From Cutibacterium equinum (GTDB lineage Bacteria > Actinomycetota > Actinomycetes > Propionibacteriales > Propionibacteriaceae): a stretch of DNA of 64,000 nt. Where the stretch lies: NCBI RefSeq assembly GCF_028021195.1, contig NZ_CP115668.1:62001-126000 (forward strand), in the 5' to 3' direction. Positions 5,478 to 23,346 of the stretch are shown here, piece after piece. The notes under the pieces are model-generated. The model searched no databases and had not been told where the DNA came from. It worked only from the letters and a program-made list of their open reading frames with translations. The position numbers and the translations under genes are program-made. Position 1 is the stretch's first letter; each line of letters opens with the position of its first letter.

Positions 5478-6929
5478 ATGCCCATCGATCCCAGCAAGCC
5501 GTCGACCACCACGAATGGTTCTCCCGCACCCAGCGACGAATACTCCCTGACCGTCGGTGCTGACGGCCCGGTGGTGCTGCACGACGCCCACCTGGTTGAC
5601 ACCCTGGCCCACTTCAACCGCGAGAACATCCCCGAGCGCAAGCCGCACGCCAAGGGATCGGGCGCCTTCGGGCACCTCGAGATCACCGCTGACGTCTCGG
5701 AGTACACCAAGGCCGACTTCCTGCAGAAGGGCCGCGAGACCCCGATGCTGGCCCGTTTCTCCACGGTTGCCGGTGAGCTCGGCAGCCCCGACACCTGGCG
5801 CGACGTCCGTGGATTCTCGCTGAAGTTCTACACCAACGAAGGCAACTTCGACATGGTGGGCAACAACACCCCGGTGTTCTTCATGCGCGACCCGATGAAG
5901 TTCCCGCACTTCATCCGCTCCCAGAAGCGGCTGCCGAACTCCGGCCTGCGCAGCCCCAACATGATGTACGACTTCTGGAGTCTCTCCCCGGAGTCGGCCC
6001 ACCAGGTCGCCTATCTCATGGGGCCGCGAGGTATTCCGCTCAGCTACCGCACCATGAACGGCTACTCCTCGCACACCTACTCGTGGGTGAACGCTGAGGG
6101 CGAGATCACCTGGGTGAAGTACCACTTCATCAGCGACCAGGGTGTGCACAACATGACCGCCGACCAGGCCAAGGCCATTGTTGGCGACCACCCGGACATC
6201 CACCGCGAGGATCTGTTCAATCACATTGCTGACGGCGACTACCCGTCCTGGACTGTCAAGGTGCAGCTCATGCCCTATGACGACGCCAAGGACTACCGCT
6301 TCAACCCCTTTGACATCACCAAGGTGTGGCCGCACAAGGACTACCCGCTGCACACCATCGGCACGTTCACCCTGGACCGCAACCCGGAGAACTTCTTCGC
6401 CCAGATCGAGCAGGCGGCCTTCTCCCCGTCCAACACCGTCGAGGGCACCGGTCTGTCCCCCGACCGTATGCTCATGGGCCGCGTCTTCGCCTACAACGAC
6501 GCCGCCCGCAACCGCCTGGGCGTCAACTACGACCAGTTGCCGGTGAATCGTCCGACCGTCGCGACGAATCAGTACACCTTCGACGGTCAGATGGCCTACG
6601 AGCATGCCGGGTCGGCCCCGACCTACGCCCCGAACTCCTACGGTCGCGATTACACCACCGGCCACCGAGCCGGGTCGGAGACTGCGTGGGAGGCTGATGG
6701 CGAGCTCGTTCGCGCCGCCCAGACCCTCCACTCCGAGGATGACGACTTCGGCCAGGCCCACACCCTGGTCCACGACGTCTTCTCCGATGCGCAGCGCGAC
6801 GAGCTGGTGGAGACCCTCGTCGACCTGCTGACCAACTTCGACATGGAGGAGCCGGTCATCGGCAACACCCTGACCTACTGGCGCAACATCGACGCCGGTG
6901 TGGCAGACAAGGTCGAGTCCTCGATGTGA
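5478..6929 (+). CDS. katA: Monofunctional heme catalase
   Basis: A 483-residue small-subunit (clade 3-like) catalase that disproportionates hydrogen peroxide. The distal histidine lies in [15 protein letters not shown] and the asparagine region in [34 protein letters not shown] is the conserved heme-pocket segment. The proximal tyrosine lies in [15 protein letters not shown] longer open frame exists upstream, but the ATG at 5478 has an ideal GGAGGAG (5466-5472) and gives the standard catalase N-terminus, so it is chosen. It is monocistronic and ends at the hairpin at 6950. Peroxide defence fits the adjacent nitrite/NO module. Confidence 0.96.
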
Positions 6930-6949
6930 TGGCGCTGTAACTGGCTGAT

Positions 6950-6981
6950 GGCCCCTGGGGAATCACCGTTCCCCAGGGGCC
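6950..6981. terminator. Bidirectional hairpin between catalase and the B12 operon end
   Basis: GGCCCCTGGGGAA (6950-6962) and TTCCCCAGGGGCC (6969-6981) form a perfect 13 bp stem with a 6 nt loop. It lies between the catalase stop and the stop of the last gene of the minus-strand operon, so it probably terminates both transcripts. No T-run follows. Confidence 0.75.
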
Positions 6982-6997
6982 ACCGTGTCATGAGCCC

Positions 6998-8743
6998 TCA
7001 GCGCTGGTTCGACCACACCTGCCACAGCCGGGAGAAGGGGCCATCCCCGTGGCGCAGCTGTTCGACAGGCCCGACCTCGATGATCCGGCCGTCCTCCATG
7101 ACCGCGATCTCGTCAGCCATGGCCACCTGGGACAGCCGGTGAGCGACGACCAGGGCGGTGCGTCCCTTGACGACCTCGAGGGCGGCCCGGTCGAGGGAAG
7201 CCGCTCCCGAGGTTCCAGCCTCCGCCGTCGCCTCGTCCAGGATGATGACCGGGGGATCGGCCAGCAAGGCTCGTGCCAACGCGACCTGTTGGGCCTGGGC
7301 CGGGGAGAGCCGAGTTCCCAATCGTCCCACCACCGTGTCGACACCATCAGGCAATGCCCCAACCCAGTCGGCACCAACCTGCTCCAGAGCCGCCACGACG
7401 GCCTGGCGAACCTGGTCCTCGGACCAGTTCTCAGCAGTGGCCGGCAACCCGAGGGCCACGTCGTCGAGAAGGCTGCCCGAGAAGGTGTGGATCTCCTGGC
7501 TGATGAGCACGGTTCGAGCCCTGCCGGGCGACATGACGACCTGGCCAGACCGAGGTTCCAACAGCCCCGCCACCAGCGCTGCGACGGTTGACTTGCCAGC
7601 ACCGGACTGCCCGACGAGAACCATGGTGTGACCGGCAGGAATGTCCAGGCTCACCTCGCGAACGACGTCCGGACCGTCCTGGTAGCCGAAACTCAGCCGG
7701 TCCACGTGCACCGAGGTCGGGCCGTGGTGTGTGTATTCGATGGCAGCCGGTTCCTCGTGGCGGGCGTGAATGACGCCGATCACTCGCTGCAGACACACCC
7801 AGGCGGCTTGCAGGTTGTTGAGGAACATCAGCAGGAACCGCACCGGGGAGAACAGTCTCAGCAGCACCAGGATTGCCGTCGCCGCAGCGCCGACACTCAG
7901 CCGGTCTCCGGTGACGAGGAGATACCCCGTCCAGGAGACGCCAATGGTGGCCACGGCCTCCCCGGCCAGCAGGCGGACGACCAAGGTGTTCCCGAGGAAC
8001 CGCCCACGCAGGTTCCAACGGATCGCCTGCCAAGACCCGGCCGCCACCGTGCGCGTGCGCAGGTTCTCCAGCCCGAAGGCCCGCACCACGTCAAGGCCGT
8101 GGATGGTGGAGAGAATGTGCTGGGACTGGGTCGTCGAAGCCCGCCTCTCAGCACGGTAAACGGGCGGAGCAGTGCGCAGGAACTCCCGGATCGCCAAGCC
8201 GTAGAGCACGGCAGCCAGAAGTACCGGGATGAAGAAGGCCGGGTGCAGGCTGGCCAGCGCGCCCACTGACACGATCACCATGATCATGGTGTTGACCAGG
8301 CGTGGGAGGGCACCATTGGCGGCGTCGCGCACTGCGGTGACGTCGTCGGAGGCGCGTGAGACGAGGTCAGCCGTCCCAGCCCTCTCCACTCGTTGCTGGT
8401 CGAGCCCCAGACCGGATTCGATCATCGCCTCCCGCAACCGGGTGACGATGGTGGTGAAGAAGGACGGTGTCAGGGTCTGGGCGGCACCATTGCAGATACC
8501 CGACCCGATGACCGCTGCCGCCATGACGAGGGCCGGGGTGAGCAGGGACGAGGGCGGACGATGGGCCCGGGCAGCGTCGATGATCCATCCGGTCGCCATC
8601 GGCACGGCCAGGTCCAACAGAGCAGCCGCCGTGGTGACCACGACTGCGCCGATGAAGTACCCGCGCACACCACGTGACGCCCGGTGGACCTCCTGGCGAA
8701 CCTGAGCGGCAGTGGCAAGTGGGAGCCAACGAGGGGTGCTCAT
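6998..8743 (-). CDS. Half-ABC exporter, catalytically competent subunit of a heterodimer
   Basis: A 581-residue fused transmembrane/ATPase half transporter. Residues about 28-320 hold six membrane helices. The ATPase domain has a canonical Walker A GQSGAGKST (378-386) and Walker B VIILDE with catalytic E504. Its signature motif is degenerate: LSPAQ (479-483) instead of LSGGQ. Its partner at 8740 has the mirror-image defects, so the pair should form one working composite ATP site. The ATG overlaps the partner's stop by 4 bases (ATGA). It is the last gene of the B12-riboswitch operon. Export of the product or intermediate made by the upstream rSAM and chelatase genes is an inference from position. 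Confidence 0.85.
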   Translation of the reverse strand: MSTPRWLPLATAAQVRQEVHRASRGVRGYFIGAVVVTTAAALLDLAVPMATGWIIDAARAHRPPSSLLTPALVMAAAVIGSGICNGAAQTLTPSFFTTIVTRLREAMIESGLGLDQQRVERAGTADLVSRASDDVTAVRDAANGALPRLVNTMIMVIVSVGALASLHPAFFIPVLLAAVLYGLAIREFLRTAPPVYRAERRASTTQSQHILSTIHGLDVVRAFGLENLRTRTVAAGSWQAIRWNLRGRFLGNTLVVRLLAGEAVATIGVSWTGYLLVTGDRLSVGAAATAILVLLRLFSPVRFLLMFLNNLQAAWVCLQRVIGVIHARHEEPAAIEYTHHGPTSVHVDRLSFGYQDGPDVVREVSLDIPAGHTMVLVGQSGAGKSTVAALVAGLLEPRSGQVVMSPGRARTVLISQEIHTFSGSLLDDVALGLPATAENWSEDQVRQAVVAALEQVGADWVGALPDGVDTVVGRLGTRLSPAQAQQVALARALLADPPVIILDEATAEAGTSGAASLDRAALEVVKGRTALVVAHRLSQVAMADEIAVMEDGRIIEVGPVEQLRHGDGPFSRLWQVWSNQR

Positions 8744-10512
8744 GACAGCATCTCGCGGTAATCTGCGCGGGCCAGCAGCTCACGGTGGGGTGCGCGGGCG
8801 ACCTCGCGACCGTCATCGTCGAGCGTGACCACCTCGTCCATACGGTCCAACAGGGCAGGGGAGGTGGTGGCGACGACGGTGGTGCGCCCCTGCCTCAACT
8901 CCTGCAATCGTTGCGCGATGGTGGCGGTGGTGACGGCGTCAATGCTTGTGGTGGGGTCAATGAGGACCAGACCGTCGGGGGAGTGCAGCAGGGCTCGAGC
9001 CAGGGCCAGACGTTGACGCTGACCACCGGAGACGTGGCGTCCGCCCTCCCCGACCTCGGTCTCCAGGCCGCGTGGCAGCACCTTGGCGACGGTATCCAGG
9101 GCGGCGGTGTCAATGACGGCATTGAGTTTGGCCACCGTCGTCTGGCGATCCAGCACGATGTTGGCCCGCGCGGAGTCGTCGAACAATTCGGGACGTCGCG
9201 GGGCCACCAACACCAGGCGCCTTCGCTGGGACGGGTTGAGGTTACTGCCCGGAACCCCGTTGAAAAGGGTTTGCGGACCGTGCTCGATGGCTTCTGCCAG
9301 TGCGTCGCACACGTGCTGAGGGGCGACGATCCCCAGATGGGTTCCGGCGGGGATGTCCAGGCAGAACTCCGGCTCCTCGACGACAACCCGTAGTGACACC
9401 GGGCCGTCTCCGGGAGTGGTGCGGGCCCCGTCGTCGGGGTGGACCTGCCAGGCGGCCGGACTGTCCCGCAGCTCACAGAACCTGTCCCCCGAAGCGTTGG
9501 CGCTGGCCAGCATGGTCGCGGTGTCGACACCCAGAGCCCGAAGCGGAGGCCCGAGGGTTTGCGCCAGACCCACCACGGTCACGAGGTCCCCGACACTGAT
9601 GTGACCCTTGAGAGTGAGCCACCCGGCGAGCACTGTGAGCGCCGTGATGAAAACCCCGACCGAAGCGTTGATGGTGCCGGTGTAGACCCCCTTGATGCGA
9701 CGGTTGCGCAGGGTGGCTGCCAGCCCTTGCTGACTCGCCGCACGGAATCTCGCGGTGGCGCGATGTTGAGCCGACAGGCCCTGGATGACACGCAGCCCGC
9801 TGGTGAGATCGGCGGCTGACCCAGCCACGGCGGCCTCGGCTCGTCGCTCCCGACGGGTACTGCGCTTGACCGGGGCGACGCCCTTGACCGACAGCACGAT
9901 GAGCAGCGGGACGATGCACACCGTCGCCACCACCAGCCAACCGTTGATGAGGGCCATCGCGATGAGCGCGCCCAGCAGGGTGACGACGTTGCCCGGTATC
10001 GACGTCAAGGCGATGAAGGCCCGAGACACCGCTCGAACATCGGTGACGACGACTGCCAGCAGGTCACCGGGAAGGCGGGACTTTCCGCCGACTCCTTCCG
10101 GGGCCGTGATGCGTTCAAGTGCTTGGACGCGAAGATCGTGCTCAGCCAGCCCAGCTCCGACATTGGTCTGCATGCGCACCGTCTGGGCCACCGCGCGGAC
10201 CACGTAGGCCAGCGCCACCAGGGCCAGCCATCCGGCCAGTGCGGCAGCGTTCGCGGCGACGACCCCGTCATCAATGGCGCGGCCCAGGGCCATCGGCACC
10301 CCGATATTCACCAGGCTGACGAAGGCGGAGGCGACTGAGCCAGGCAGCAGCCATCGTCTCCCGTCATGCGACATCTGACGGACCACGGCCCGGCCGTCGT
10401 GGACCTCGTCAACGTCGATGAGAGGAGAATCAATGGGTGGCGGGGTCTGCTTCGGGATGTGTGGCAGCCACCCCAGGGTCGGCTGCCAGTGCCGACGGGG
10501 AGTCCGTATCAC
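8740..10512 (-). CDS. Half-ABC exporter, degenerate-ATPase subunit of a heterodimer
   Basis: 590 residues from the GTG at 10512, which overlaps the ChlI-like stop as GTGA. A longer frame upstream would run through the ChlI gene and is rejected. Six membrane helices lie in about 55-330. The ATPase domain lacks a Walker A: its place (394-402) reads GIVAPQHVC with no GKS/T. It also lacks the catalytic Glu, reading LVLIDP (515-520). The signature VSGGQRQRLALARALL (494-509) is intact. It can therefore supply the signature half of the one good ATP site formed with the 6998-8743 subunit. Such asymmetry is known in heterodimeric exporters, but complete loss of Walker A is an extreme case. Confidence 0.83.
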   Translation of the reverse strand: MIRTPRRHWQPTLGWLPHIPKQTPPPIDSPLIDVDEVHDGRAVVRQMSHDGRRWLLPGSVASAFVSLVNIGVPMALGRAIDDGVVAANAAALAGWLALVALAYVVRAVAQTVRMQTNVGAGLAEHDLRVQALERITAPEGVGGKSRLPGDLLAVVVTDVRAVSRAFIALTSIPGNVVTLLGALIAMALINGWLVVATVCIVPLLIVLSVKGVAPVKRSTRRERRAEAAVAGSAADLTSGLRVIQGLSAQHRATARFRAASQQGLAATLRNRRIKGVYTGTINASVGVFITALTVLAGWLTLKGHISVGDLVTVVGLAQTLGPPLRALGVDTATMLASANASGDRFCELRDSPAAWQVHPDDGARTTPGDGPVSLRVVVEEPEFCLDIPAGTHLGIVAPQHVCDALAEAIEHGPQTLFNGVPGSNLNPSQRRRLVLVAPRRPELFDDSARANIVLDRQTTVAKLNAVIDTAALDTVAKVLPRGLETEVGEGGRHVSGGQRQRLALARALLHSPDGLVLIDPTTSIDAVTTATIAQRLQELRQGRTTVVATTSPALLDRMDEVVTLDDDGREVARAPHRELLARADYREMLS

Positions 10513-11501
10513 GCTTGCCCCGGACCGCCGACCGACTCGAGGGGGCGCCGCCTCATGCGGTGCGGCAGGACGAGCCGAGCGGCCTGGGAGAGGTCGTCGG
10601 CGGTGATGTCGGTGCGCCCGTTCCACGCCGCCAGGGTGCGCGCGGCCCTCACCATCATGATGTCGGCTCGGTGGCCGTCAACGTGCGCGTTGATGCAGGT
10701 GCGGGCGACCGTCATGAGGGTCTCGTCGTCGATGTGGACCTCCTTGACGAGCTCGGTGGCCCGTACGATCCTCTCGCTGAGCGTGTGGCCTTCCTGTTCC
10801 CACGTGCGAGAAAAACCAGCCGGGTCGTCCTCGAAGGCCGGCCGACGCCGGATGACCTCGATGCGCTTGTCAGGGTCGTCCTCCCCGCCGACGGTGACGC
10901 ACAGTCCGAATCGGTCGAGGAGCTGGGGACGCAGTTCCCCCTCTTCGGGGTTCATGGTGCCGACCAGGGTGAACCGTGCCGGATGGGTGATGCTGACCCC
11001 CTCACGCTCGACGGTGTTGACCCCCATCGCGGCCGAGTCCAGCAGCAGGTCGACGACGTGGTCGTCGAGGAGGTTGACCTCGTCGACGTAGAGGATCGCG
11101 CGGTGGGCCGCGGCCAGTAGACCGGGCTCGAAGCGGCGTCGGCCCTCGCGCAGGGCGGTCTCCATGTCGAGGGTTCCGGTGACGCGGTCCTCGGTGGCGC
11201 CGACCGGAAGCTCGACGACGGGCACCTGGACGGTGCGTGGCTCAGGCATGGGCTCGGGCAGGCCGAGCTCGGCGGCGTGGGCCGGGTACTTCTCGGGGGA
11301 CAGGTGGTAGGCGCCGGGAACCTCCTGGTGCTCCGGGAGGAGGGCTGCCAGGCCGCGCACCGCAGTGGACTTCGCCGTCCCCTTCTCACCACGGATGAGC
11401 ACCCCGGACAGATCGGGGCTGATCGTGGCGAGGATGAGGGCCAGCTTCATCTCCTGTTGTCCGACGATGGCGCAGAAGGGGTAGACGGGGCGTTGTGCCA
11501 T
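10509..11501 (-). CDS. chlI: AAA+ chelatase subunit, ChlI/BchI-like
   Basis: 330 residues from the ATG at 11501. A longer open frame extends into the upstream gene, but MAQRPVYPFCAIVGQQEMKL is the standard ChlI start. Walker A is GEKGTAKST (38-46), Walker B is ILYVDEVNLLDD, and GTMNPEEGELRPQLLDRFGL contains the sensor region. In Mg- and Co-chelatases this AAA+ subunit forms a ring with the ChlD/CobT-type subunit and drives metal insertion by the large ChlH/CobN subunit. It starts 1 base after the ChlD-like stop and two genes after CobN. No bacteriochlorophyll genes are visible, so cobalt rather than magnesium is the likely metal. Confidence 0.9.
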   Translation of the reverse strand: MAQRPVYPFCAIVGQQEMKLALILATISPDLSGVLIRGEKGTAKSTAVRGLAALLPEHQEVPGAYHLSPEKYPAHAAELGLPEPMPEPRTVQVPVVELPVGATEDRVTGTLDMETALREGRRRFEPGLLAAAHRAILYVDEVNLLDDHVVDLLLDSAAMGVNTVEREGVSITHPARFTLVGTMNPEEGELRPQLLDRFGLCVTVGGEDDPDKRIEVIRRRPAFEDDPAGFSRTWEQEGHTLSERIVRATELVKEVHIDDETLMTVARTCINAHVDGHRADIMMVRAARTLAAWNGRTDITADDLSQAARLVLPHRMRRRPLESVGGPGQA

Positions 11502-11502
11502 G

Positions 11503-13491
11503 TCAGCGGTCCTTTCGAGGTTGGGTCGGGTCGAGTTGGGAGACGACGTTGACGAGGTCGTCGGCACGTAGGTTGTCGATGCGCAGGCAGGGTCCGCCCA
11601 GGGCCGTCGCGATGTCGCTGGCCCGGGATAGTTGGATGCCTCGTGGGTCCTCGGTGTCGATGACCACCCAGCTGAGGCGTGGGTCGGTACCGATTGTGGC
11701 CGCCACCCGAATCGCCTCGTCAGTGGCCCGGGCGTTGGGTGTGCCGTCCAGGTCGACGTTGCCGCGTCCGTCGGTGACGAGCACCAGCAGCGGTCGCAGG
11801 CCGGGATCTTTGAGTAGCAGGGGCCTGACGATCTCACAGGCCTTGACGAGCCCTGCCGCCAGGGGAGTACGCCCACCGATGGGAAGCTCGGCCAGGCCAC
11901 GCTGGGCCACCTCGACCGAGGAGGTGACCGGAACCAGCACCTCGGCTTGGTTCCGACGGAAACTGATGAGGCAGACCCGGTCGCGTTTGACGTAGGCGTC
12001 GAGCAGCAGGGACAGGACAGCCCCCTTGGATGCGGTCATCCGGCCTCGCGATCCCATCGACCCGGAGGCGTCGACGACGAAGATGACGCAGGAGGCCGAC
12101 CGTCCGGTCCTCACCTTGGCTCGCCAGTCAGCCGGCTCGACGTGGACCGCCATCGCGGGGCGGTTGGGGTCGGCGCGGCGCGATTTCTGGTGGACCGCAG
12201 CGGCACGAAGGGTGGCGTCCAGGGCAAGGTCGTCGGGGACGGTCGTGGGGCGAGCCGAGATGTAACGGCCGCGTCGGTCCTTGCTGCGGGTGCGCAGTCG
12301 TCGTCCCGAGGCGCGACGGGCCAGACGATCCTGGCCGGGTTCCAGTGGTCGTACGGCGAAGGGGTCCCCGACGGCAGCGACCTGTTCCCCGGGCTGGTGG
12401 TCCTGGGAGTCTGGCTGGCGGTCCGACTGGTCCTGCCCATCGGTCTGGTCGCCAGGATCTGTGTGGTCATCGCGTTGCTGATCGTCCTGGCTGCCAGGTG
12501 GGGCGGCAGAACCCTCGTTCAGCGACCCGTTTTCCACATCGTCACTGCGACCCTGGTCGGGCTGGTCAGGCTGGTCGGGCTGGTCGGGCTGTTGGTCAGG
12601 TGACTCAGGCTGCTCTTGCTGGGGCTGTGGTGGCGGTGGCGGGTCGGAGGGGGTCTCGTCACGGCGACGATGCCGCAGCACCATCTCGCTGACCGCCAGC
12701 ACGTCGTCCTCGGTGGCGATCCCACGGCCGGCCAGGGCAGCGTGCGCACGGGTGGCCTCCGCCATGACGATGTCGGCCCGGTGGCCCGCGACGTGGTTGT
12801 GCCCGCACAGCGAGCAAATGAGTTCGGTGACGACCTCGTCGAGGCGTACCCCGCCGACCATCCCGCGGGCCTTCTCGATGGCGGCTGCCTGACGATCCTG
12901 GTCGTGCTGCCATTGAGCGAGAAAGGCTGCGGGGTCAGCGTCATGGGCGAGTCGGCGTCGCATGATCTCGGCGCGGGTCCGTGGATCGGCTTCGCCGTGT
13001 ACCTCGACGCACAGTCCGAACCGGTCGAGTAGTTGGGGTCGCAGTGCCCCCTCCTCCGGGTTCATCGTCCCGACCAGGACGAAACGGCTTGCCAGAGTAG
13101 CCGTCAGCCCCTCGCGCTCGACTCGCACGATTCCGGCGCAGGCGTCGATGACGAGGTCAACGAGATGGTCGTCGAGGAGGTTGACCTCGTCGACGTAGAG
13201 CACCCCGCCGTCGACCTCGCTCAGCAGCCCCGGTTGGAGCACCGGGCGTCCCGAGGTCAGGGTGGCCTCCAGATCGAGTCCCCCGACGAGGCGGTCCTCG
13301 GTGGTCCCCAGGGCCAACGTCCTCATCACGTGACTCGGCAGCAGTTCTGCCAGGCCACGCACCACCGTCGACTTGGCCGTGCCCTTTTCACCGCTGAGCA
13401 CGACTCTGCCGATGCGGGGGTTGACCGCACACAGCAGCAGTGCAAGTTTCGTCTCGTCCTGCCCGACGATGGCGGTGAATGGGTAGGTCAT
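11503..13491 (-). CDS. chlD: AAA+/VWA chelatase subunit, ChlD/BchD-like
   Basis: 662 residues in three parts. Residues 1-275 are a ChlI-like AAA+ domain with an intact Walker A GEKGTAKST (34-42) and VLYVDEVNLLDD (97-108). Residues about 281-375 are a low-complexity linker rich in Pro, Gln and Asp with a repeated PDQ unit. Residues about 465-655 are a von Willebrand A domain with MIDAS DASGSMG (474-480). Many ChlD subunits have lost the ATP site; this one keeps it. Its ATG overlaps the CobN stop by 1 base (TGATG), showing translational coupling. It should bridge CobN and the ChlI-like ring in a CobN-ChlID-type cobaltochelatase. Confidence 0.92.
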   Translation of the reverse strand: MTYPFTAIVGQDETKLALLLCAVNPRIGRVVLSGEKGTAKSTVVRGLAELLPSHVMRTLALGTTEDRLVGGLDLEATLTSGRPVLQPGLLSEVDGGVLYVDEVNLLDDHLVDLVIDACAGIVRVEREGLTATLASRFVLVGTMNPEEGALRPQLLDRFGLCVEVHGEADPRTRAEIMRRRLAHDADPAAFLAQWQHDQDRQAAAIEKARGMVGGVRLDEVVTELICSLCGHNHVAGHRADIVMAEATRAHAALAGRGIATEDDVLAVSEMVLRHRRRDETPSDPPPPPQPQQEQPESPDQQPDQPDQPDQPDQGRSDDVENGSLNEGSAAPPGSQDDQQRDDHTDPGDQTDGQDQSDRQPDSQDHQPGEQVAAVGDPFAVRPLEPGQDRLARRASGRRLRTRSKDRRGRYISARPTTVPDDLALDATLRAAAVHQKSRRADPNRPAMAVHVEPADWRAKVRTGRSASCVIFVVDASGSMGSRGRMTASKGAVLSLLLDAYVKRDRVCLISFRRNQAEVLVPVTSSVEVAQRGLAELPIGGRTPLAAGLVKACEIVRPLLLKDPGLRPLLVLVTDGRGNVDLDGTPNARATDEAIRVAATIGTDPRLSWVVIDTEDPRGIQLSRASDIATALGGPCLRIDNLRADDLVNVVSQLDPTQPRKDR

Positions 13492-16400: not shown

Positions 16401-17399
16401 GGCCTCCCGGGTCGCGAGGAACTTGGTGATGAGGGCCCCGTCAAACTCTGGCTGCGCGGCCTGGGTGGCGATGTCCATCGACCCCATGCCTTGGGCGGTG
16501 GCCTCCCACATTTCCCGTGGCGCGTAGGAGGTGAGGGCGTGCAACACGCTGACGCCAAGGTCAGGGTAGGCGTCGGCGTTGGCGGGGACACCAGCCGTCA
16601 TCGACATGCCGTGAACGTCGATGAGGGTGTCGACGACCCGGTTGCCCTCCTCATCGTGCAGCAAGGTTGTGAGGGTTTGGGCCATTCCCATATTCCCGCG
16701 CTGGTCGTCGGGCAGACGCAGGCAGAAGAAAGGAATGGTGTTGGCGTCACGATCCTCGATGGCCTCAACAAGGGCCTGGATGTGTGCGGTGTTGTGCTCC
16801 AGCCAGTAACTGCGCGGGAAGGTGATCCCGACGGTGGGACGGTCGGGGTCCAGATGGTGCTGGTACTCGGCCAGGCTGGTGAACAGACCGTGACGCGGGT
16901 GCCAGATTCCCTCGGTGGGAGCAGGGACGACATCAGGGACGGGCGTGTTCCCGCCATTGACACGGTCGACGAGGACACGAAGCGCCGCCTCGACGTTGTC
17001 CGGACCACTCATGGCCAGCAGACCGACGAGCCCGGTCCAGGTGCCGTCATCCAGACCGTCGGCCCAGTCCTGGGCGGCGAGGAGACCGTCGTCGTCACCG
17101 GAGGTGGGTTGGATGTGGATCCACGGCAGGGACAGCCCAGAGTCGCGACGGTCCTGCCATGCTTCGAGTAGGTCGGACCATGCTGGGCACGATCCCGTCC
17201 CGCCGTGGAGACTCAAGATGACGGCGTCGCTGCGAGCGGCGGCCCTGGCAAAGGCGCGAGACAGCTCCGGATCGGTGAGTTGGTCCTTGGTGCGCCCGAA
17301 GAGGGTGACGTCGAGGCCATCAGCTTTCATCCGTGAGAGGGCCTGGCTGACGAGGGTCAGTTCGCCTCCGGTGGCTGAGAAGAAGCACAGAGTAGTCAT
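13491..17399 (-). CDS. cobN: Cobaltochelatase large subunit CobN
   Basis: 1302 residues from the ATG at 17399, which overlaps the radical SAM stop (ATGA). The open frame continues upstream, but that part is antisense-like and lacks family character. The length matches the CobN/ChlH family (about 1250-1400). Recognisable features include HVGTHGSLEWLPGKGVGLSQ, EMFRDAFPNLVE-like RISGLFRDAFPNLVEMVDQA, and FGCPPGGYGAGV, all typical of CobN. CobN inserts cobalt into a corrin precursor with ATPase partners, here the ChlD- and ChlI-like genes. Propionibacteria are known to make B12 by the anaerobic route with a small CbiK/CbiX chelatase, so a CobN under B12 control suggests a separate substrate or a salvage role. 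Confidence 0.93.
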   Translation of the reverse strand: MTTLCFFSATGGELTLVSQALSRMKADGLDVTLFGRTKDQLTDPELSRAFARAAARSDAVILSLHGGTGSCPAWSDLLEAWQDRRDSGLSLPWIHIQPTSGDDDGLLAAQDWADGLDDGTWTGLVGLLAMSGPDNVEAALRVLVDRVNGGNTPVPDVVPAPTEGIWHPRHGLFTSLAEYQHHLDPDRPTVGITFPRSYWLEHNTAHIQALVEAIEDRDANTIPFFCLRLPDDQRGNMGMAQTLTTLLHDEEGNRVVDTLIDVHGMSMTAGVPANADAYPDLGVSVLHALTSYAPREMWEATAQGMGSMDIATQAAQPEFDGALITKFLATREADEVDELTGAAVPRMVPVPGRPEAMAELALSWARLARTPASQRKVAIVFHHHPPRNDRIGCATGLDTFESVRQLLIRMAEEGYDVPEQFDHADDIAQVLLSCLTCDQRWLTPEQMHERAEAHADLETSRPWYRALPESVRECMDRNWGPHPGTLFVHDDEFSFAGHLDGNVLLTIQPPRGNFEAVTDAAIHDPVLPPPHHYLAHYRWIRDVFKADAVIHVGTHGSLEWLPGKGVGLSQECYPELALDRMVNIYPYIINNPGEGTQAKRRSAAALIDHLTPPMRQAGLYDSTAQIDRILREHAGAQSHSPERARLVAEQVWDAVVEAGLDTDLGLSAEDVDTDPVALLDKVHHHLLELQDREISDGLHVLGQLVAGHDDPAAAEVEYVAQLTRHPNGQVPSLREAVLDAWGTSLEEVSAKAGQPVTVTADLPQGLTGREIMAAAHHQCVDLLAPVVSCYRGGCFDADKAHDLAVQLCREQLGVYRGDVVKTLTWVMTDLMPRLDATQDEIESIMTALDGGFVSPGPSGAPSRGNAHILPTGRNFFSLDPETMPTPTGWREGVELADQLLAEYAEAHPNQPWPRTVGIVVWGTANMRSGGADVAKILYLMGVRPVWASSGLVSGLQIIDPAELGRPRIDVSPRISGLFRDAFPNLVEMVDQAVRMVAALPEADEDNLLRAHVEADVADMIARGVDVEQARRKATLRVFGCPPGGYGAGVEELIETKAWQDKSDLGRAYIAASSHAYGEGVFGDVETERFTAALSRMDATVKNEDTREYDMLSCTDFYNYYGGLIAAATTVRGEAPMSFVEDSSDPARIATRTTTEEARLILRSRILNPSWIEGLQRHGYKGAGDLSKVLDILIGWDATADVIDDGLWEKVARRYALDPAMQEWFREVNPHALHNIVDKLLDAAQRKVWEADPSTVEELQDTYADIEGTIEEVSDDPHPAGDPTASASMNADGGLNLADLGLA

Positions 17400-18496
17400 G
17401 ATGCGGTCTCCAGACGGGCGAGGGTGTCGTCGATGAGGCAGGTCAGCGGGGTGCGAGTGTGGTCTGGGTCGGCGAGGGTGGTGGCCTCGACGCGCGAGGG
17501 GCAGTCGCCGGGGCAGCGTCCCGATAGGGCACAGCGGTGACACGGTCCGCGCAAGGTGTGGACGTCCTGGGAGAAGCGCTTCGTGAGCCGCTCCCAGTCG
17601 ACGTCGTAGATGGTTCCAGCCCGGGAAGCCGGGTCCCCGACGGATTGGGAGCAGGGGTAGACGCCACCGTCCGGGGCCACCGCCATCGATTCCCCGACAG
17701 CAGCGTGGCAGTAGGGGCGGTTGGACACCGACACTGGCAGCAGGGTCCGACCGGAGGGGTCGACGGTGGTCGGGGAGTTTGCTGGGCGGCGACGCAAAGC
17801 CGCGCGGACGGTTTCCAATTCCCGCCACACAAGGGGTTTGGCTCGCATGGCGTTGACCTGGGCGAGGCGTCGATGCAGGGCACTGATCCCGGCGACGACC
17901 GCTTCGTCGGAGGGGACGAGGTCGGCCCGACCGGCTGCGCTGCCGATACCCACCAGCGGGTCAAGGCCGAACCCGGTGACGTTGGGGAGCCCGCCCAGGG
18001 TGACGGCCAGCTCGTCGAGGTGGTCGACGTTGAGGGCCGAGAGCACCGTCGTCACTCGCACCGGGACGTCAGCCCGAGCCAGGGCGAGCAGACCCCGGAA
18101 GGTCCGGGCCGCCGAACCGCGGGCCCTTTCCTGCACCTGCGGTGGACCGTCAACACTTACCCCAACACGCACGCGAAGCCGTGTGAGCGTGGCAATCATG
18201 TCGTCGTCGAGGCGTGCCGCGTTGGTCTGGATACCGCAGGTGACCCGGCCACCCCGGATGCCAGCAACCCGCTCGGTGACGTGCTCGATGAGACCGGGCA
18301 CCAGGGTGGGCTCCCCACCGGCCAATTGCACGTGGGCCGGCTGCCCGGTGCTCCGAACCCCCTCGGCGACAAGGTCGAGGGCCGCATCGGCGACCTCGGT
18401 CGGCATTCGACCACCCCGACGATCCCGTCGGTAGCAGTAGGGGCAGGCCAAGTCGCAGGCGGCGGTGGGCCACAACACCAGGTAGCGGACGGTCAT
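17396..18496 (-). CDS. Radical SAM protein with SPASM domain
   Basis: 366 residues. The radical SAM cluster motif is CDLACPYC (C14, C18, C21), followed by AGGEPTLVPG (the GGE SAM-binding motif, about 59-68). A C-terminal SPASM domain has seven cysteines at 263, 282, 319, 322, 328, 332 and 353, the full set for two auxiliary [4Fe-4S] clusters. SPASM enzymes usually modify peptides (PqqE, AlbA) or activate sulfatases. No precursor peptide gene or peptidase is visible in the operon. The gene overlaps its neighbours on both sides by 4 bases, between the importer ATPase and CobN. The substrate is unknown; a corrinoid or tetrapyrrole, or a distant peptide, are both open. Confidence 0.88.
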   Translation of the reverse strand: MTVRYLVLWPTAACDLACPYCYRRDRRGGRMPTEVADAALDLVAEGVRSTGQPAHVQLAGGEPTLVPGLIEHVTERVAGIRGGRVTCGIQTNAARLDDDMIATLTRLRVRVGVSVDGPPQVQERARGSAARTFRGLLALARADVPVRVTTVLSALNVDHLDELAVTLGGLPNVTGFGLDPLVGIGSAAGRADLVPSDEAVVAGISALHRRLAQVNAMRAKPLVWRELETVRAALRRRPANSPTTVDPSGRTLLPVSVSNRPYCHAAVGESMAVAPDGGVYPCSQSVGDPASRAGTIYDVDWERLTKRFSQDVHTLRGPCHRCALSGRCPGDCPSRVEATTLADPDHTRTPLTCLIDDTLARLETAS

Positions 18497-19494
18497 GACC
18501 GGCTGTCTTCCCGCTGGCGGCCAACGAGATGATCATGCAGCTCGGACAGGGTTGCGACCATCTGGCCATTCACAGACCAACCACCGTCAGTGACAGTCAC
18601 CGTCACCCCGGCGTCGGCAGGGTCCTCAACCACCCAATATCCCGACCGTGTCAGGGTGTGGCGGGCCAGATCGGCGTCGGCCCCCGACCCCACCACCTGC
18701 GCCGTGGGGCGCCCCTCGTCCGACTGCCAGAAGGTGAGGGTGTGGAGGTCGAAGGCGATCCCCTCGGTGCGAAAAGCGTCCTCGAGGGCGCCGGCACGGG
18801 CCAGGTCCTCAGGCGCCCCCATCGTCACCTCAGTGCCGCGTCCAGCCACCCACAGGGTGTCGGCGTACCGCATCACCGGCTCGATGTCGTGGCTGCACAC
18901 CACGACGGCAATATCCCTTGTCGTACACACGTGGCGCAGCATTCCGAGCAGGGCGATACGGCCTGGCGGATCAAGGAAAGACGTCGGCTCGTCGAGCAGC
19001 AGGATGGACGGCTCCTGGGCCAGCGCCCGAGCCACCATGACCCGCTGACGCTGTCCGTCCGACAATTCCCCGACGAAGGCGTCGGCCAACTCGGTGGCAC
19101 CCACCGCAGCCAAGGACTCGTCGATGACGGCGTGGTCATGGGGTCGCAGTCGTCCCCCGATCCCGGAATGGGGATGACGTCCCAGCGAGACGATGTCGCG
19201 ACAGGTGAGGCGAGCCACCGAGATCCGGTCGGTCAACACCGTCGAGAGGGTCTGGGCGATCTGACGGCGCGACATCGTGGCGGTCGGGGTGCCGTTGAGG
19301 GACACCTCGCCTCCCAAAACCGGCTGCAACCCGGCCACTGATCGCAGCAGGGTTGACTTGCCGGCCCCGTTCGGCCCGACCAGCCCGACCATCCGGCCAG
19401 CCTCCACCGACCCCGTCACCCCGGAAAGCACCGTCGCGACATGGCGGCCCGAGGCGTACCCGACCGACAGATTGTTCAGGGCCAGCCCGGTCAT
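18493..19494 (-). CDS. ABC importer ATPase, BtuD/FecE-like
   Basis: 333 residues from the ATG at 19494 (ATGA overlap with the permease stop). The nucleotide-binding domain has Walker A GPNGAGKST (40-48), signature ELSDGQRQRV (143-152), Walker B ILLLDEP (164-170) and the switch His in VVCSHDIEP. A C-terminal extension of about 80 residues after position 250, beyond the usual ATPase end, has no motif I recognise. With the permease and the two binding proteins it forms a type II importer for a siderophore, heme or corrinoid. The cobalamin riboswitch makes a corrinoid or cobalt-containing substrate most likely. Confidence 0.9.
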   Translation of the reverse strand: MTGLALNNLSVGYASGRHVATVLSGVTGSVEAGRMVGLVGPNGAGKSTLLRSVAGLQPVLGGEVSLNGTPTATMSRRQIAQTLSTVLTDRISVARLTCRDIVSLGRHPHSGIGGRLRPHDHAVIDESLAAVGATELADAFVGELSDGQRQRVMVARALAQEPSILLLDEPTSFLDPPGRIALLGMLRHVCTTRDIAVVVCSHDIEPVMRYADTLWVAGRGTEVTMGAPEDLARAGALEDAFRTEGIAFDLHTLTFWQSDEGRPTAQVVGSGADADLARHTLTRSGYWVVEDPADAGVTVTVTDGGWSVNGQMVATLSELHDHLVGRQREDSRS

Positions 19495-20564
19495 GTCGCC
19501 TCCGCATTCCGATACCAACGGATGAGAATGATCATGACGACCGGGGCACCAAAGACCGCATTGACGGCATTGACGGGCAGGACGTCGTCGCCTGGCAACT
19601 GGGCCAGGATGTCGGCCATGAGGGCCAAGGAACCACCGGTGAGGATGCAACCGGGCAGCAGGTGGCGGTGATCTGCCGTGCCGAGCACCCCTCGGGTGAG
19701 ATGAGGGATGGCGATGCCGAGAAAGCTGATCGGCCCGCAGAAGGCCGTGGCCGCCCCGGCGAGGATGGCGGTGCTGGCTACCAGCAGGCAGCGCACCGCC
19801 TTGAGGTTCATCCCCATCGTCTGGGCGTACCGTTCCCCCAGTAACAGGGCGTTGAGGGGTTTGGCGAGGAAGAGGCTTGCCAGGATCATGACGACCATGA
19901 TCGGAACCATCACTTTGAGGTTTTCCCAGGTGACGCCGTGGTAGCTGCCGAACTGCCAGCGGGTGTACTGGGCGACCAGTTCAGGGCTGGCCCGTGACAA
20001 CAGGACGGTGACTCCCGAGGACACGAAATACCCGATCATGACGCCGAGCAGCAGCAGGATCGTCGAGGAGGTGATGAATCGTCCTGCCAGCATGACGATG
20101 AACAGGACGACGGCCGCCCCCAGGGCCGCCGCCACCATGATCAACAAGTCGGGTCCGATGCCCAGCCCGGAGGCAAAGGTCGCCGCTCCCACCGACGACG
20201 CCGTGCCGAGAACGACGAGGGCGACGCCGAGGCTGGCACCCGAGGAGATGCCGAGCACATAGGGGTCGGCCAGTGGATTGCGGAACAGGGTCTGCATCTC
20301 CAACCCGGCGATCCCCAGAGCTGCCCCGACGAGCAGGGCGGTGATGGTGCGCGGCTCCCGGACGTCATGGACGATCGTCAGGGAGACCGGGTCGACGTCG
20401 GTGCCCCCGGTGATGACCGTCATGACGTCATTGATGGGAATGTTCACCGATCCCAGAGCCAGTCCCGCGATCGCCACGAGCATGAAGATGACCGCGAGGA
20501 TCACGAAACGGACGGGCAGCGGCAGCCCTCGCCGCCGATGCGTCGTCCGCTGTGTCGTGGTCAC
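19491..20564 (-). CDS. ABC importer permease, BtuC/FecCD family
   Basis: A 357-residue FecCD-type permease with about ten helices. Family signatures are REPRTITALLVGAALGIAGL near residues 70-90, NPLADPYVLGISSGASLG near 115-132, and GPISFLGIAIPHLTRGVLG near 282-300. The GTG start overlaps the stop of the binding protein (GTGA). It should form the channel of the B12-regulated importer with the 18493-19494 ATPase. Confidence 0.92.
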   Translation of the reverse strand: MTTTQRTTHRRRGLPLPVRFVILAVIFMLVAIAGLALGSVNIPINDVMTVITGGTDVDPVSLTIVHDVREPRTITALLVGAALGIAGLEMQTLFRNPLADPYVLGISSGASLGVALVVLGTASSVGAATFASGLGIGPDLLIMVAAALGAAVVLFIVMLAGRFITSSTILLLLGVMIGYFVSSGVTVLLSRASPELVAQYTRWQFGSYHGVTWENLKVMVPIMVVMILASLFLAKPLNALLLGERYAQTMGMNLKAVRCLLVASTAILAGAATAFCGPISFLGIAIPHLTRGVLGTADHRHLLPGCILTGGSLALMADILAQLPGDDVLPVNAVNAVFGAPVVMIILIRWYRNAEAT

Positions 20565-21820
20565 TTGGCCGGTGCCTTCTTGTAGAAGGTGAACGTGTGG
20601 TTCTTACTGAGTTCGGGGTGCAGGATGGCCGACAGGTCTGCCAGCACCAGATCAGGCCGGACGACCCCGGTCTGCCAATAGTCGTTGCCGTGCTTCGGGT
20701 CGTCACGCAGGACGCCGTTCCAGACGTTGCCGTTGCGCACCGGCTTGAGGGTCTTCATGCGCGGATCGTCCTTGACGATGGTCGGGATCGACGCTTTCTG
20801 CGACTCGTTGATCTGGCCGTCGATCCAGAAGTCGGCGTCATGGGCCTTCTTGAGGATCGTCTCGGTGTCCAGTTTCGACGAGGTCACCCCGTGGACGTCC
20901 TTGAAGACGTACTCGCCGCCGGCGTCACGCAGGAACTGGATGGAGTAGTTCTCGTTGGACTTGATGTACCAGACTCCCTTGAATTGGTAGCCGTAGAGCA
21001 CGCTGGGTCGCGTCGTGACGTTGGCCGTCAGCTTGGTCGTCTCGTGGTAACGCTTGGCGATGTCGTCGTATTTTGCGTTGGCAGCCTTCTCGGCATTGAC
21101 GAAAAGTGCGTCGTACTTGATCCACTCAGCCCGTCCCAGCGGGGTGTTCTCGAGGAAGTCAGGCTCGGCGACCACCGGTGTGCCCATCTCCTTGACCTTG
21201 GCGAACTTGCTGGGGTCGTCGTGGCCGCTGATGATGAACAGGTCAGGGCGCAGAGCGGCCAGCTTCTCGGTGTTGACCTCGGTGGTCTCGTCCCCGACGC
21301 CGAAGTCAGCGACCTTGTGGTCTTTGAGGGCCTGACGGGTCTTCGGGTCACCGACCTTGTCCACGCTGGTCATTCCGACCACGGAGTCCAGCTTGTTCAT
21401 CATCTGGAACTTCATCGGCCCGGTGGTTGACCCGAGGGCAACCCTGGTGGTGGGAATGGTGATCTTCTGAGCCTGGGCGAGGTCCCCGTCCAGTTTTGGT
21501 TGCGGGGCACCGCACTGCACCAGGACGTACGTGGTCTCCTTCTTCGAGGTGTTCGACGGGGTTTTGACCGTCACCACCTTGTAGGACTTGTGATAGCTGA
21601 CGGTGAGGCCCCGGGCGTCACTGAACGTCGCCTTGTCGGGGAAGTAATCCTTCGAGGAGTCGAAGTCCTTGATGCAGCCTTGCTGGGCCTGCGAACTCGA
21701 GGACGCCTTGGAGGCTGAGTCCGAGTCCTTCCCGGTTGGGGAGGACTGTGAACAGCCGGTGAGGGTGGCGAGGGTCAGGGCGATCGCGGCCAGCCCCGCG
21801 ATCCGACGGTTGATGGTCAT
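20561..21820 (-). CDS. Substrate-binding lipoprotein 1 of B12-regulated importer
   Basis: 419 residues. The signal peptide ends in a lipobox LTGC (C at about 23), so it is a lipid-anchored binding protein. After a Ser-rich linker come CIKDF, SYHKSYKVVTV and YVLVQCGAPQPKL, then a class III periplasmic-binding fold (COG0614, BtuF/FepB type) including GVGDETTEVNTEKLAALRPD and DDIAKRYHE. It is a diverged paralogue of the next upstream gene (21869-23134), with the same N-terminal module. GGAG precedes the ATG. Ligand specificity is unknown; a corrinoid is suggested by the riboswitch. Confidence 0.88.
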   Translation of the reverse strand: MTINRRIAGLAAIALTLATLTGCSQSSPTGKDSDSASKASSSSQAQQGCIKDFDSSKDYFPDKATFSDARGLTVSYHKSYKVVTVKTPSNTSKKETTYVLVQCGAPQPKLDGDLAQAQKITIPTTRVALGSTTGPMKFQMMNKLDSVVGMTSVDKVGDPKTRQALKDHKVADFGVGDETTEVNTEKLAALRPDLFIISGHDDPSKFAKVKEMGTPVVAEPDFLENTPLGRAEWIKYDALFVNAEKAANAKYDDIAKRYHETTKLTANVTTRPSVLYGYQFKGVWYIKSNENYSIQFLRDAGGEYVFKDVHGVTSSKLDTETILKKAHDADFWIDGQINESQKASIPTIVKDDPRMKTLKPVRNGNVWNGVLRDDPKHGNDYWQTGVVRPDLVLADLSAILHPELSKNHTFTFYKKAPAK

Positions 21821-21868
21821 TCTTGTGCTCCAGTATTGAAATCACGCCGCACAGAGTGGGCGGAGGGC

Positions 21869-23134
21869 TCAGCCGAGTTTCTGGTAGTAGTACGGGGTGT
21901 ACCCGGACATGAGCTCGGGGTGGAAGATGTAGGTGAGGTCCTTGAGGACGACGTCAGGCTGGACGACTCCGGACTGCCAGAAGTCGTTGCCGGTGTCGGG
22001 AGCCGTTCGCTTGGTCGGGTTCCACACCTTGCCTGCCTTGAATGCCGACAGGTTGCCGTAGCGAGGGTTCTGCTTGAGGGCGTCAGCCTTGGAGTGCCAC
22101 GTGGTGCGGGCCATGTAGTTGCCGTTGAGCCAGAAATCAGCCATCGACCCGTATTTGAAGACGACCTCGGAATCAGTCGGGGTACTTCCCGTTCCGGTGA
22201 CGGCCTTCCCCATGGCGTTGGTGGCACCGGCGTCAGTCATGAACCGGACCATGTAGGAATCAGCGGCGGGCACGTACCACTGGCCCTTCGTCTCCTGGCC
22301 GACGAGAACACTGGGCTTGGCCGTGGCGTTCTTGGCCTTCTCCTCGACCTCGTTGTAGCGCTTGGCGATGTCGTCGTAGGTCTTGGTGGCATCCTTCTCC
22401 TTGTTGAGGAGGATGCCGTAGGTCTTCATCCATTCAGCCCGGGCCAAGGGATCGGACTCAAGGTAGTCAAGGTCTTGCAGTACGGGAATGCCTGCCGACT
22501 CGACCTGCTTGAACTCCTCGATGGCGGAACTGGCGGCCAGCACGACGTCGGGCTTGAGGGCGATGATCTTCTCCGGGTCGCTGGTCATCTGGGAGGATCC
22601 ATAGCTGGGGACGTGACGGGCCTCAAGGGCCTCGCGAGCCGGGCCGTGGTAAATCTGCTTGAGCTGGTTGACGCCGACGATGGTGTCCAACGAGTTGAGA
22701 GTCTGGAAGACCGGCACCTGCGTGGTGGAGGAAGCGGCAACCCTCTTGACCGGCACGTTGATGACCTTGGCCTTGGCGAGGTCACCGGTCAGGGACGGCT
22801 TGGGAGCTCCACACTGCAGCAGGACAAGGGTCTGTGCAGACTTCCCCTGGCCGAGCGTCATGACCTTGTAGGACTTGTGGTAGCTGACCTTCGCCTGCTT
22901 CGCCCCGGTGAAGGTCACCTTGTCGGGGAAGTAGTCCTGGTTCTTGTCGAAGGACCCCGACTTGATGCACCCGGACATATTGCCACCGGTATTGGCGGTG
23001 GTCGATGCTGCCGGCTTGTCGCCCGAGGTGGTCTTGTCGCCGGAGTTCGAGCATCCGGCCAGCGCGAGGCTGGGCGCAATGAGGAGGGTGATGAGGGCCG
23101 AGATCGTTCTCGGTGCGGTCTTCGAAGTACTCAC
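21869..23134 (-). CDS. Substrate-binding lipoprotein 2, first gene after the cobalamin riboswitch
   Basis: 421 residues from the GTG at 23134, preceded by AGGAAG. An upstream in-frame GTG at 23176 would put 14 residues through the expression-platform hairpin and is rejected. The signal peptide has lipobox LAGC. Like its paralogue it carries a module with CIKSG, YFPDKVTF, SYHKSYKVMT and LVLLQCGAPKPSLTGDLAKA, then a BtuF/FepB-like fold ending DVVLKDLTYIFHPEL. It is separated from the second binding-protein gene by 48 bases. Two binding proteins for one permease/ATPase pair suggest two ligands or two forms of one ligand. Confidence 0.88.
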   Translation of the reverse strand: MSTSKTAPRTISALITLLIAPSLALAGCSNSGDKTTSGDKPAASTTANTGGNMSGCIKSGSFDKNQDYFPDKVTFTGAKQAKVSYHKSYKVMTLGQGKSAQTLVLLQCGAPKPSLTGDLAKAKVINVPVKRVAASSTTQVPVFQTLNSLDTIVGVNQLKQIYHGPAREALEARHVPSYGSSQMTSDPEKIIALKPDVVLAASSAIEEFKQVESAGIPVLQDLDYLESDPLARAEWMKTYGILLNKEKDATKTYDDIAKRYNEVEEKAKNATAKPSVLVGQETKGQWYVPAADSYMVRFMTDAGATNAMGKAVTGTGSTPTDSEVVFKYGSMADFWLNGNYMARTTWHSKADALKQNPRYGNLSAFKAGKVWNPTKRTAPDTGNDFWQSGVVQPDVVLKDLTYIFHPELMSGYTPYYYQKLG

Positions 23135-23140
23135 GCGGTT

Positions 23141-23162
23141 CTTCCTGCGGTCATGCCGCAGG
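23141..23162 (-). promoter_or_regulatory. Hairpin overlapping the Shine-Dalgarno of the first operon gene
   Basis: On the minus strand CCTGCGG and CCGCAGG (23156-23162 with 23144-23150) pair around a 5 nt loop. The 3' arm overlaps AGGAAG (complement of 23141-23146), the ribosome binding site of the GTG at 23134. It lies about 20 bases after the riboswitch core. This is the expected layout for translational control by a cobalamin riboswitch. Confidence 0.6.
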
Positions 23163-23183
23163 AACCGTTGTGGCACGCGTGTC

Positions 23184-23346
23184 GTGTGCCCGGCAGACTC
23201 CTACGGCGAGAGTCGTTACTTGCCACTCCGCAGGGAGTCGACCGGACTGAGCTGTGAGGCATCACCGTTGCGCGACAGTGTCGGATTCCCACCGACTTCG
23301 CTCACTGAGGAGTGCCCCAAACCGAATCCGATATTGAGGCAACCGA
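23184..23346 (-). ncRNA. Cobalamin riboswitch
   Basis: Read on the minus strand, the leader contains GTCGGTGGGAATCCGAC, then ACTGTCGCGCAACGGTGA, then GCCGTAGGAGTCTGCCGG. The first two match the conserved core of cobalamin riboswitches (P5 stem-loop with GGGAAT, then the C-x-G-CGC-AACGGT segment). The third matches the 3' B12 box (AGYCAGGAGACCTGCC consensus). Order, spacing and orientation are correct. It lies between the CblS-like gene and the first binding protein, so it should repress the 16 kb operon when adenosylcobalamin is plentiful. Outer boundaries are approximate. Confidence 0.9.

Follow-up and report, generated by a model that had tools for sequence, protein, structure and literature searches.

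A radical SAM/SPASM enzyme co-inherited with one CobN subfamily in a candidate B12-controlled corrinoid salvage operon of Cutibacterium equinum

Operon-2 of Dehalobacter restrictus, the nearest published system to the locus studied here, combines a riboswitch, a Fep/Btu-type importer, two CbiZ proteins, CobN and Mg-chelatase subunits, and shows a 346-fold increase in transcript and a 46-fold average increase in protein upon corrinoid starvation (PMC4285132). Here we analyze a 64,000-nucleotide stretch of Cutibacterium equinum DNA (contig NZ_CP115668.1, positions 62,001 to 126,000; hereafter the window), whose minus strand carries 10 co-directional genes (23134-6998) behind a putative cobalamin riboswitch. 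They encode, from 5' to 3', two substrate-binding proteins (SBP1 and SBP2), a FecCD permease, an ATPase, a radical SAM/SPASM enzyme, CobN, a ChlD-like and a ChlI-like protein and two type IV ATP-binding cassette (ABC) half-transporters. The riboswitch, importer, CobN and Mg-chelatase subunits of operon-2 are all found here, the riboswitch with a score under the Rfam cut-off. The two loci differ in that CbiZ is missing from the window genome, being present in relatives, and in that the main text on operon-2 does not use the words radical SAM and the available portion mentions no exporter (PMC4285132). Systems of this kind, in which a B12-switched importer is joined to CobN and Mg-chelatase subunits, are already known, and the remark in the original prediction that no characterized system with exactly these genes was known is corrected by this overlap in gene content. 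By analogy, the operon-2 data are the nearest experiment to the B12 response of the window operon. In the published literature searched, we found neither the pairing of the radical SAM enzyme with CobN, nor the signature of this CobN subfamily, nor its occurrence in two or more phyla; the literature search likewise returned no publication on a cobaltochelatase together with SPASM.

Comparison of genomes shows that the radical SAM/SPASM gene is co-inherited with one CobN subfamily, tying the enzyme, as judged from gene distribution, to CobN. We searched 297 genomes from the phylum of G811, the Syntrophaceae genome that holds locus L029. The radical SAM profile matched 16 of these at E 1e-60 (at most six candidates scored per genome), and the window CobN matched 37 at E 1e-150 (at most two candidates scored per genome). 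CobN proteins of a strong group, scoring at least 883 bits, occur in 16 genomes, and these are exactly the 16 with the radical SAM enzyme. The 883-bit line was set after the scores were seen, and the CobN of G991, reported in two pieces, was placed in the strong group with the 1244 bits that it reaches as a single open reading frame. For independent genomes, the chance that two sets of 16 among 297 coincide exactly would be about 1e-26, which serves as a yardstick only, the genomes being related. G1079 has a weaker CobN match (40%), and the remaining 20 genomes stay at or below 703 bits. The CobN of G1079 directly precedes a more divergent radical SAM enzyme and a CbiZ match, the second CobN of G826 directly follows a divergent radical SAM enzyme, and that of G983 lies about 3 kb from a radical SAM fragment. 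Because these exceptions have a radical SAM enzyme or a fragment of one near CobN, the pairing seems to reach beyond the strong group.

In the stretches fetched around the 16 radical SAM genes, the subfamily CobN is present in 12; the neighbor in L086 is another CobN type, and L087, L091, and L095 contain no CobN although their genomes hold a subfamily CobN elsewhere. Among 396 Actinomycetota, the radical SAM enzyme was found in two (E 1e-50) and some CobN in 57 (E 1e-150), and it is in the same two that the radical SAM enzyme and the subfamily CobN occur together. A system confined to the genus was rejected, as orthologues of both proteins exist in Thermodesulfobacteriota and in one distant actinomycetote. 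A scan of named genomes with two strict peptide patterns returned at least eight loci, four from Cutibacterium and four deltaproteobacterial, a lower bound. The original prediction had proposed that the radical SAM enzyme, CobN and both half-exporters should be sought together in other genomes: the first two do co-occur, and in the loci examined the exporter pair accompanies them only in Cutibacterium.

Loci outside the genus variously contain corrinoid-type importers, cobalamin riboswitches, TonB receptors and the corrinoid-remodeling amidohydrolase CbiZ. L028 and L029 share the order SBP, permease, ATPase, C-N hydrolase, radical SAM enzyme, CobN, ChlD, ChlI and CbiZ, and a cobalamin riboswitch scoring 115.8 bits is present in L028. 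In G475, an actinomycetote of another class, the SBP, permease, ATPase, radical SAM enzyme, CobN, ChlD and ChlI genes are followed by a convergent cbiZ, and the leader scores 30.5 bits against the cobalamin riboswitch cut-off of 31.5. Across the 16 radical SAM stretches, a cobalamin riboswitch above gathering is present in 11 and CbiZ, by Pfam, in seven (G810, G811, G847, G991, G1030, G1086, and G1091). In G1086, an SBP (Peripla_BP_2) and CbiZ are fused in a single protein (L083:2572-4587), which is a direct link between importer and corrinoid amidohydrolase. TonB receptors were assigned by Pfam in L084, L086, L089, and L093, and members of the TonB cluster occur in 10 of 19 compared loci. The company of CbiZ, importer, TonB receptor and riboswitch in these loci fits the scavenging or remodeling system that had been proposed for the window. 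L029 (2813-6338) also encodes, between SBP and permease, a NifH/NifD homologue fused into one protein and a separate NifK homologue, perhaps for ring reduction. ResB-like genes lie in L090 and L092 (Pfam) and L088 (similarity), and CcsA-like genes in L092 (Pfam) and L088 (similarity).

The window CobN exceeds the equivalog cut-off of TIGR02257 (899.8 vs. 822.05 bits), a likeness to the aerobic cobaltochelatase CobNST, and scores higher with solved CobN (729 and 641 bits) than with HmuS (373 bits). It differs from CobNST in its ChlI/ChlD-like motor, its active-site motif and its radical SAM partner, and the operon contains no other gene of the late-insertion pathway. When 49 CobN rows were placed in a tree, the 20 rows belonging to radical SAM loci formed one side of a fully supported branch, and the second CobN of G475 grouped with ordinary CobN. 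All rows outside the radical SAM group are from Actinomycetota, a gap partly filled by the E 1e-150 CobN search of the 297 genomes. The CobN of L088 (788 aa, under the 850-aa limit) was left out beforehand, and L064 (the same gene as L035), L086, and L109 were removed.

All 25 sampled subfamily members carry an S-C-T-D motif where ordinary CobN mostly has D-S-D-D and HmuS S-L-D-H. S1112, C1113, and T1114 are found in 25 of 25 members, and neither S1112 nor T1114 occurs in any of 45 other CobN. L137 was left out of this comparison, and L062 was counted as lacking an adjoining radical SAM gene, yet lies in G475, whose genome has one elsewhere. S1112 is also present in both sister-type CobN that have that stretch. 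A Cys at the C1113 position occurs in 14 of the 45 other CobN, of Cys-rich type, and C1113 is replaced by Ser in L146 and L147, both with radical SAM neighbors. C1040, present in 24 of 25 members, was dropped as a cysteine linked to the radical SAM enzyme because L090 has the enzyme without that Cys. The CobN-like proteins of the sampled phylum that lack the radical SAM enzyme (L131-L145, 14 rows aligned) mostly show a Cys-rich G-C-C-C in the active-site loop and constitute another type.

The heme de-chelatase HmuS belongs to the same superfamily as the window CobN and has the first His motif in common with it. Its second motif is LSLDHxxEFMGG, with His-1209 and Glu-1212, and it works without ATP, and outside a few clusters of the CobN superfamily reliable annotation is impossible (PMC12583661). 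Residues 1111-1122 of the window CobN read LSCTDFYNYYGG, that is L-S-C-T-D-F-Y-N instead of L-S-L-D-H-x-x-E; in this motif-level comparison, the places of His-1209 and Glu-1212 are taken by Asp and Asn, and the Ser is common to both. The window operon moreover encodes an ATP motor. Judged by sequence, an HmuS-type de-chelatase was rejected, as the motif differs and the scores favor solved CobN. Because the protein is of CobN type, the motor is present and the HmuS residues are absent, we infer that the window CobN would insert cobalt with the aid of its ATP motor.

The radical SAM enzyme has the CxxxCxxC motif and the SPASM cysteines (TIGR04085, 39.7 bits vs. a cut-off of 27), and C14, C18, C21, C263, C282, C319, C322, C328, C332, and C353 are invariant in 11 of 11 orthologues. 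Among the 25 NCBIfam models listed, it passes no named-family cut-off except that of the SPASM domain; the best family model is PapB (99.9 vs. 340 bits), and NirJ, a tetrapyrrole enzyme, gives 39.6 bits. In a profile search, the nearest solved relatives are 5wgg, which we take to be CteB, and anaerobic sulfatase maturases. CteB and these maturases modify Cys or Ser residues in peptides or proteins and share the radical SAM core and SPASM with the window enzyme, but the window operon contains neither a sulfatase nor a precursor peptide gene. Because its longest inter-gene spacer measures 48 nt, the operon has no room for a precursor gene of a ribosomally synthesized and post-translationally modified peptide. 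A peptide or protein substrate appears roughly as probable as a ring substrate. As for the target itself, we lean slightly toward the ring, which falls just short of an even chance; the chelatase or its assembly is a possible target and something else a doubtful one.

The features of the operon are listed in Table 1. On recheck, the gene order and strand of the ten-gene unit described in the original prediction were borne out, and recomputing its junctions gave the same single 48-nt spacer (SBP1-SBP2) and single 1-nt gap (ChlD-ChlI) with overlaps elsewhere, of 1 nt between CobN and ChlD and of 4 nt at six other junctions. Several family searches (SBP1, ATPase, CobN, ChlI-like protein, first half-transporter) were run on open reading frames longer than the gene. 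Importer and BtuFCD have fold families in common, and the best NCBIfam models of permease and import ATPase are corrinoid ones (for the latter, corrinoid ABC ATPase with 177 bits vs. a cut-off of 537), but the scores lie well under the cut-offs and the corrinoid ligand is a predicted one. Two of the six sister loci have a single SBP gene. A tRNA-Val reported by ARAGORN inside the last gene (7143-7232, plus strand) lacks Rfam support and is probably spurious.

Table 1. Genes and RNA elements of the operon in window coordinates (RBS, ribosome-binding site; AdoCbl, adenosylcobalamin).
Feature	Position	Strand	Evidence
SBP1, lipoprotein substrate-binding protein, 421 aa, GTG start	21869..23134	-	PF01497 E 1.1e-22; lipobox by eye
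SBP2, lipoprotein substrate-binding protein, 419 aa	20561..21820	-	PF01497 E 8.8e-21; lipobox by eye
FecCD/BtuC-type permease, 357 aa	19491..20564	-	PF01032 E 6.3e-74
Import ATPase, 333 aa	18493..19494	-	PF00005
Radical SAM/SPASM enzyme, 366 aa	17396..18496	-	PF04055; SPASM TIGR04085 above cut-off
CobN subfamily chelatase subunit, 1302 aa	13491..17399	-	TIGR02257 899.8 bits
ChlD-like AAA+/VWA subunit, 662 aa	11503..13491	-	TIGR02442 750 bits (cut-off 779); VWA_2
ChlI-like AAA+ motor, 330 aa	10509..11501	-	TIGR02442 480 bits (cut-off 779); TIGR02030 398 (467)
ABC half-transporter, degenerate Walker A and Walker B, 590 aa	8740..10512	-	PF00664; motifs by eye
ABC half-transporter, intact Walker A/B, degenerate signature LSPAQ, 581 aa	6998..8743	-	PF00664, PF00005; motifs by eye
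RBS-pairing hairpin before first gene, likely expression platform	23137..23166	-	Sequence and fold
AdoCbl/cobalamin riboswitch aptamer core	23225..23313	-	RF01482, RF00174, relaxed threshold
Strong hairpin after last gene	6949..6982	-	Folding energy

B12 elements have reportedly been studied by comparative genomics by Rodionov and co-workers (2003). At the Rfam gathering cut-offs, the sole match in the whole window is a tRNA, the cobalamin riboswitch not reaching its cut-off. At a relaxed threshold, the leader of the operon matches the AdoCbl model RF01482 with 38.7 bits (cut-off 50, E 2.8e-5) and RF00174 with 27.1 bits (cut-off 31.5). The element can be aligned in seven Cutibacterium genomes, including that of the window; in the five sister loci scanned, RF01482 scores are 38.9 (L017), 41.1 (L018), 46.6 (L019), and 43.7 bits (L020), none of which reaches the cut-off of 50, whereas L021 gives no riboswitch match. 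Downstream of this core, ahead of the start site, the first gene's ribosome-binding site is paired within a hairpin in both the minimum free energy and the centroid folds, and the arms of this hairpin are largely kept in the seven genomes, being weaker in G006. Because this hairpin sequesters the ribosome-binding site, control at the leader is probably translational. The B12 riboswitch claimed ahead of the operon is borne out by the relaxed-threshold score and the conservation within the genus, though it stays below the Rfam cut-off. Riboswitches of C. acnes were mapped earlier, some of them ahead of ABC transport genes, and this operon is not named in the available portion of that study (PMC9600381). 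At the other end of the operon, the strong hairpin that had been claimed folds with -40.6 kcal/mol (z -3.93, 71-nt stretch folded); it lacks a T-run and sits between convergent genes, the opposite-strand neighbor being a catalase gene that ends at 6929.

Within the genus, the radical SAM enzyme was found at E 1e-20 in seven of nine genomes, the window genome (2.51 Mb, one contig) included, and in none of the 48 others among the 57 searched. Its nearest relative among the matches listed for named genomes is from Cutibacterium avidum (89% identity). At E 1e-40, 394 genomes of the class yielded two matches, both from this genus, and a search for plasmid-borne copies at E 1e-20 gave no match. Synteny is kept in all six sister loci fetched, with extra stretches in the radical SAM and exporter genes of the G002 copies. 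A small class II chelatase of CbiX type is encoded elsewhere in nine of nine genus genomes (C1:420456-421187 in the window genome). Because of this, the operon is probably not needed for the cell's own B12 and is unlikely to provide the main B12 chelatase, which supports the earlier claim that it is not the main B12 pathway. The sister species G003 has a parallel operon (L154:4561-14608) encoding an IsdE-like SBP (96.5 vs. 298.65 bits), a permease, an ATPase, a ChlH/CobN-like protein, a small lipoprotein, ChlD and ChlI. Its ChlH/CobN-like protein, about 1300 aa long, scores over its whole length 426 bits with ChlH, 389 with CobN and 302 with HmuS, despite an HmuS-like D-L-D-H-Y-F-E motif. The window genome contains a second CobN-like remnant (open frame of 272 aa, C1:794057-794749), whose identity with the G003 gene is only a candidate one.

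The best explanation, to which we give an even chance, is a B12-repressed corrinoid salvage system with ATP-driven cobalt insertion or reinsertion by a CobN tied to its radical SAM enzyme. At low AdoCbl, the riboswitch would permit translation of the first gene, as its sequence suggests. The lipoprotein SBPs and the FecCD-type importer would take in a corrinoid or a corrin-like ring, as indicated by family, gene company and the SBP-CbiZ fusion. CobN and the ChlI/ChlD AAA+ motor would then insert cobalt at the expense of ATP, and the radical SAM/SPASM enzyme may either ready the ring or modify the chelatase. The remetallated ring would enter the cell's own CbiX-based pathway, and the heterodimeric ABC pair would most likely clear a by-product or an unusable ring.

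Several observations weigh against this explanation. The window riboswitch lies below the Rfam cut-offs, no riboswitch exceeds the cut-off in five of the 16 radical SAM stretches, and in L029 no cobalamin riboswitch appears even at E 0.1. The best NCBIfam model of the permease, BtuC, gives 187 bits vs. a cut-off of 334, so that the importer is not recognized as BtuFCD. CbiZ was not seen in nine of the 16 stretches, and CbiZ (PF01955) is missing from the window genome, because of which remodeling here would proceed without its usual enzyme. ChlI and ChlD are unmatched near CobN in several loci, the radical SAM enzyme is absent from two of nine genus genomes, and the parallel operon of G003 resembles heme uptake with a chelatase. 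To our knowledge, metal-free corrinoids are not common, and these bacteria carry CbiX. Finally, the likeness to operon-2 of Dehalobacter is one of gene content.

An alternative that we consider unlikely is cobalt harvest, in which corrinoids or cobalt porphyrins would be imported, CobN-ChlID would remove the metal in the manner of HmuS, and the exporter would discard the empty ring. The order of import, chelatase and export fits this scheme, and the G003 operon, with its IsdE-like SBP, HmuS-like motif and ChlD/ChlI, suggests that the same layout may serve heme; this heme-like operon therefore keeps a metal-removal reading alive. However, HmuS needs no ATP, and the window CobN has Asp and Asn at the places of its His and Glu. 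There would also be little sense in destroying corrinoids at low B12, and several relatives have CbiZ along with the operon.

It is more improbable still that the radical SAM enzyme is a maturase of CobN which modifies the active-site Ser or Cys (S1112/C1113), the chelatase being inactive otherwise. The solved relatives of the enzyme, its genomic partnership with CobN in 16 of 16 genomes, and the occurrence of S1112 in 25 of 25 members, in none of 45 others and in both sister-type CobN having that stretch would agree with such a role. The Ser found at the S1112 place in the published HmuS motif, however, means that this residue alone is no marker of a radical SAM partner, and C1113 is Ser in L146 and L147 and has a Cys counterpart in 14 of 45 unpaired CobN. 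Radical SAM enzymes, among them NirJ, AhbC, and AhbD, also act on tetrapyrroles. We know of no protein-modifying radical enzyme for a tetrapyrrole chelatase.

The exporter genes bear on a third alternative, the synthesis and export of a cobalt-bearing compound. By eye, the first half-transporter lacks Walker A and its Walker B has no Glu, whereas the second has both motifs and a poor signature; the two halves, one with a degenerate ATP site, thus read as a heterodimeric type IV ABC transporter, and a heterodimer with one dead ATP site is plausible. This pair is present in all seven Cutibacterium copies and, within the loci examined, is found in the cassette only in Cutibacterium. Some other loci have an unrelated ABC-2 pair, assigned by Pfam in L029 and adjoining CobN in several others by similarity. 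Retention in seven of seven copies and the ABC-2 pair beside CobN would suit export of a product. In L028 and L061, though, neither exporter pair is matched, some open frames there remaining unassigned, and B12 repression and the company of CbiZ point to supply, not secretion. The proposed export of a cobalt-carrying product is thus weak, and we regard such a pathway as very improbable. L033 and L063, from two genomes of a single other actinomycetote family, hold another CobN type (38-39% identity), behind which lies a gene pair resembling the L029 ABC-2 pair; in L063 a cobalamin riboswitch scoring 111.8 bits lies in front, and that stretch gave no radical SAM match. Heme or porphyrin uptake that has incidentally come under a B12 switch is the least probable alternative, for although the SBPs are weakly IsdE-like (40.2 and 18.6 vs. 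298.65 bits, NCBIfam) and the superfamily includes ChlH and HmuS, CobN reaches its equivalog cut-off and cobalamin riboswitches and CbiZ recur in relatives.

In two or more phyla, one CobN subfamily is now linked with a single radical enzyme and with control of B12 type. The prediction that follows is a new corrin reaction or else a chelatase matured by a radical enzyme, and in the latter case, if true, the radical modification would give CobN a new metal- or ring-handling group. The culturable Cutibacterium offers a way into the system, and in skin and anoxic communities the salvage of B12-type rings shapes how vitamins are shared.

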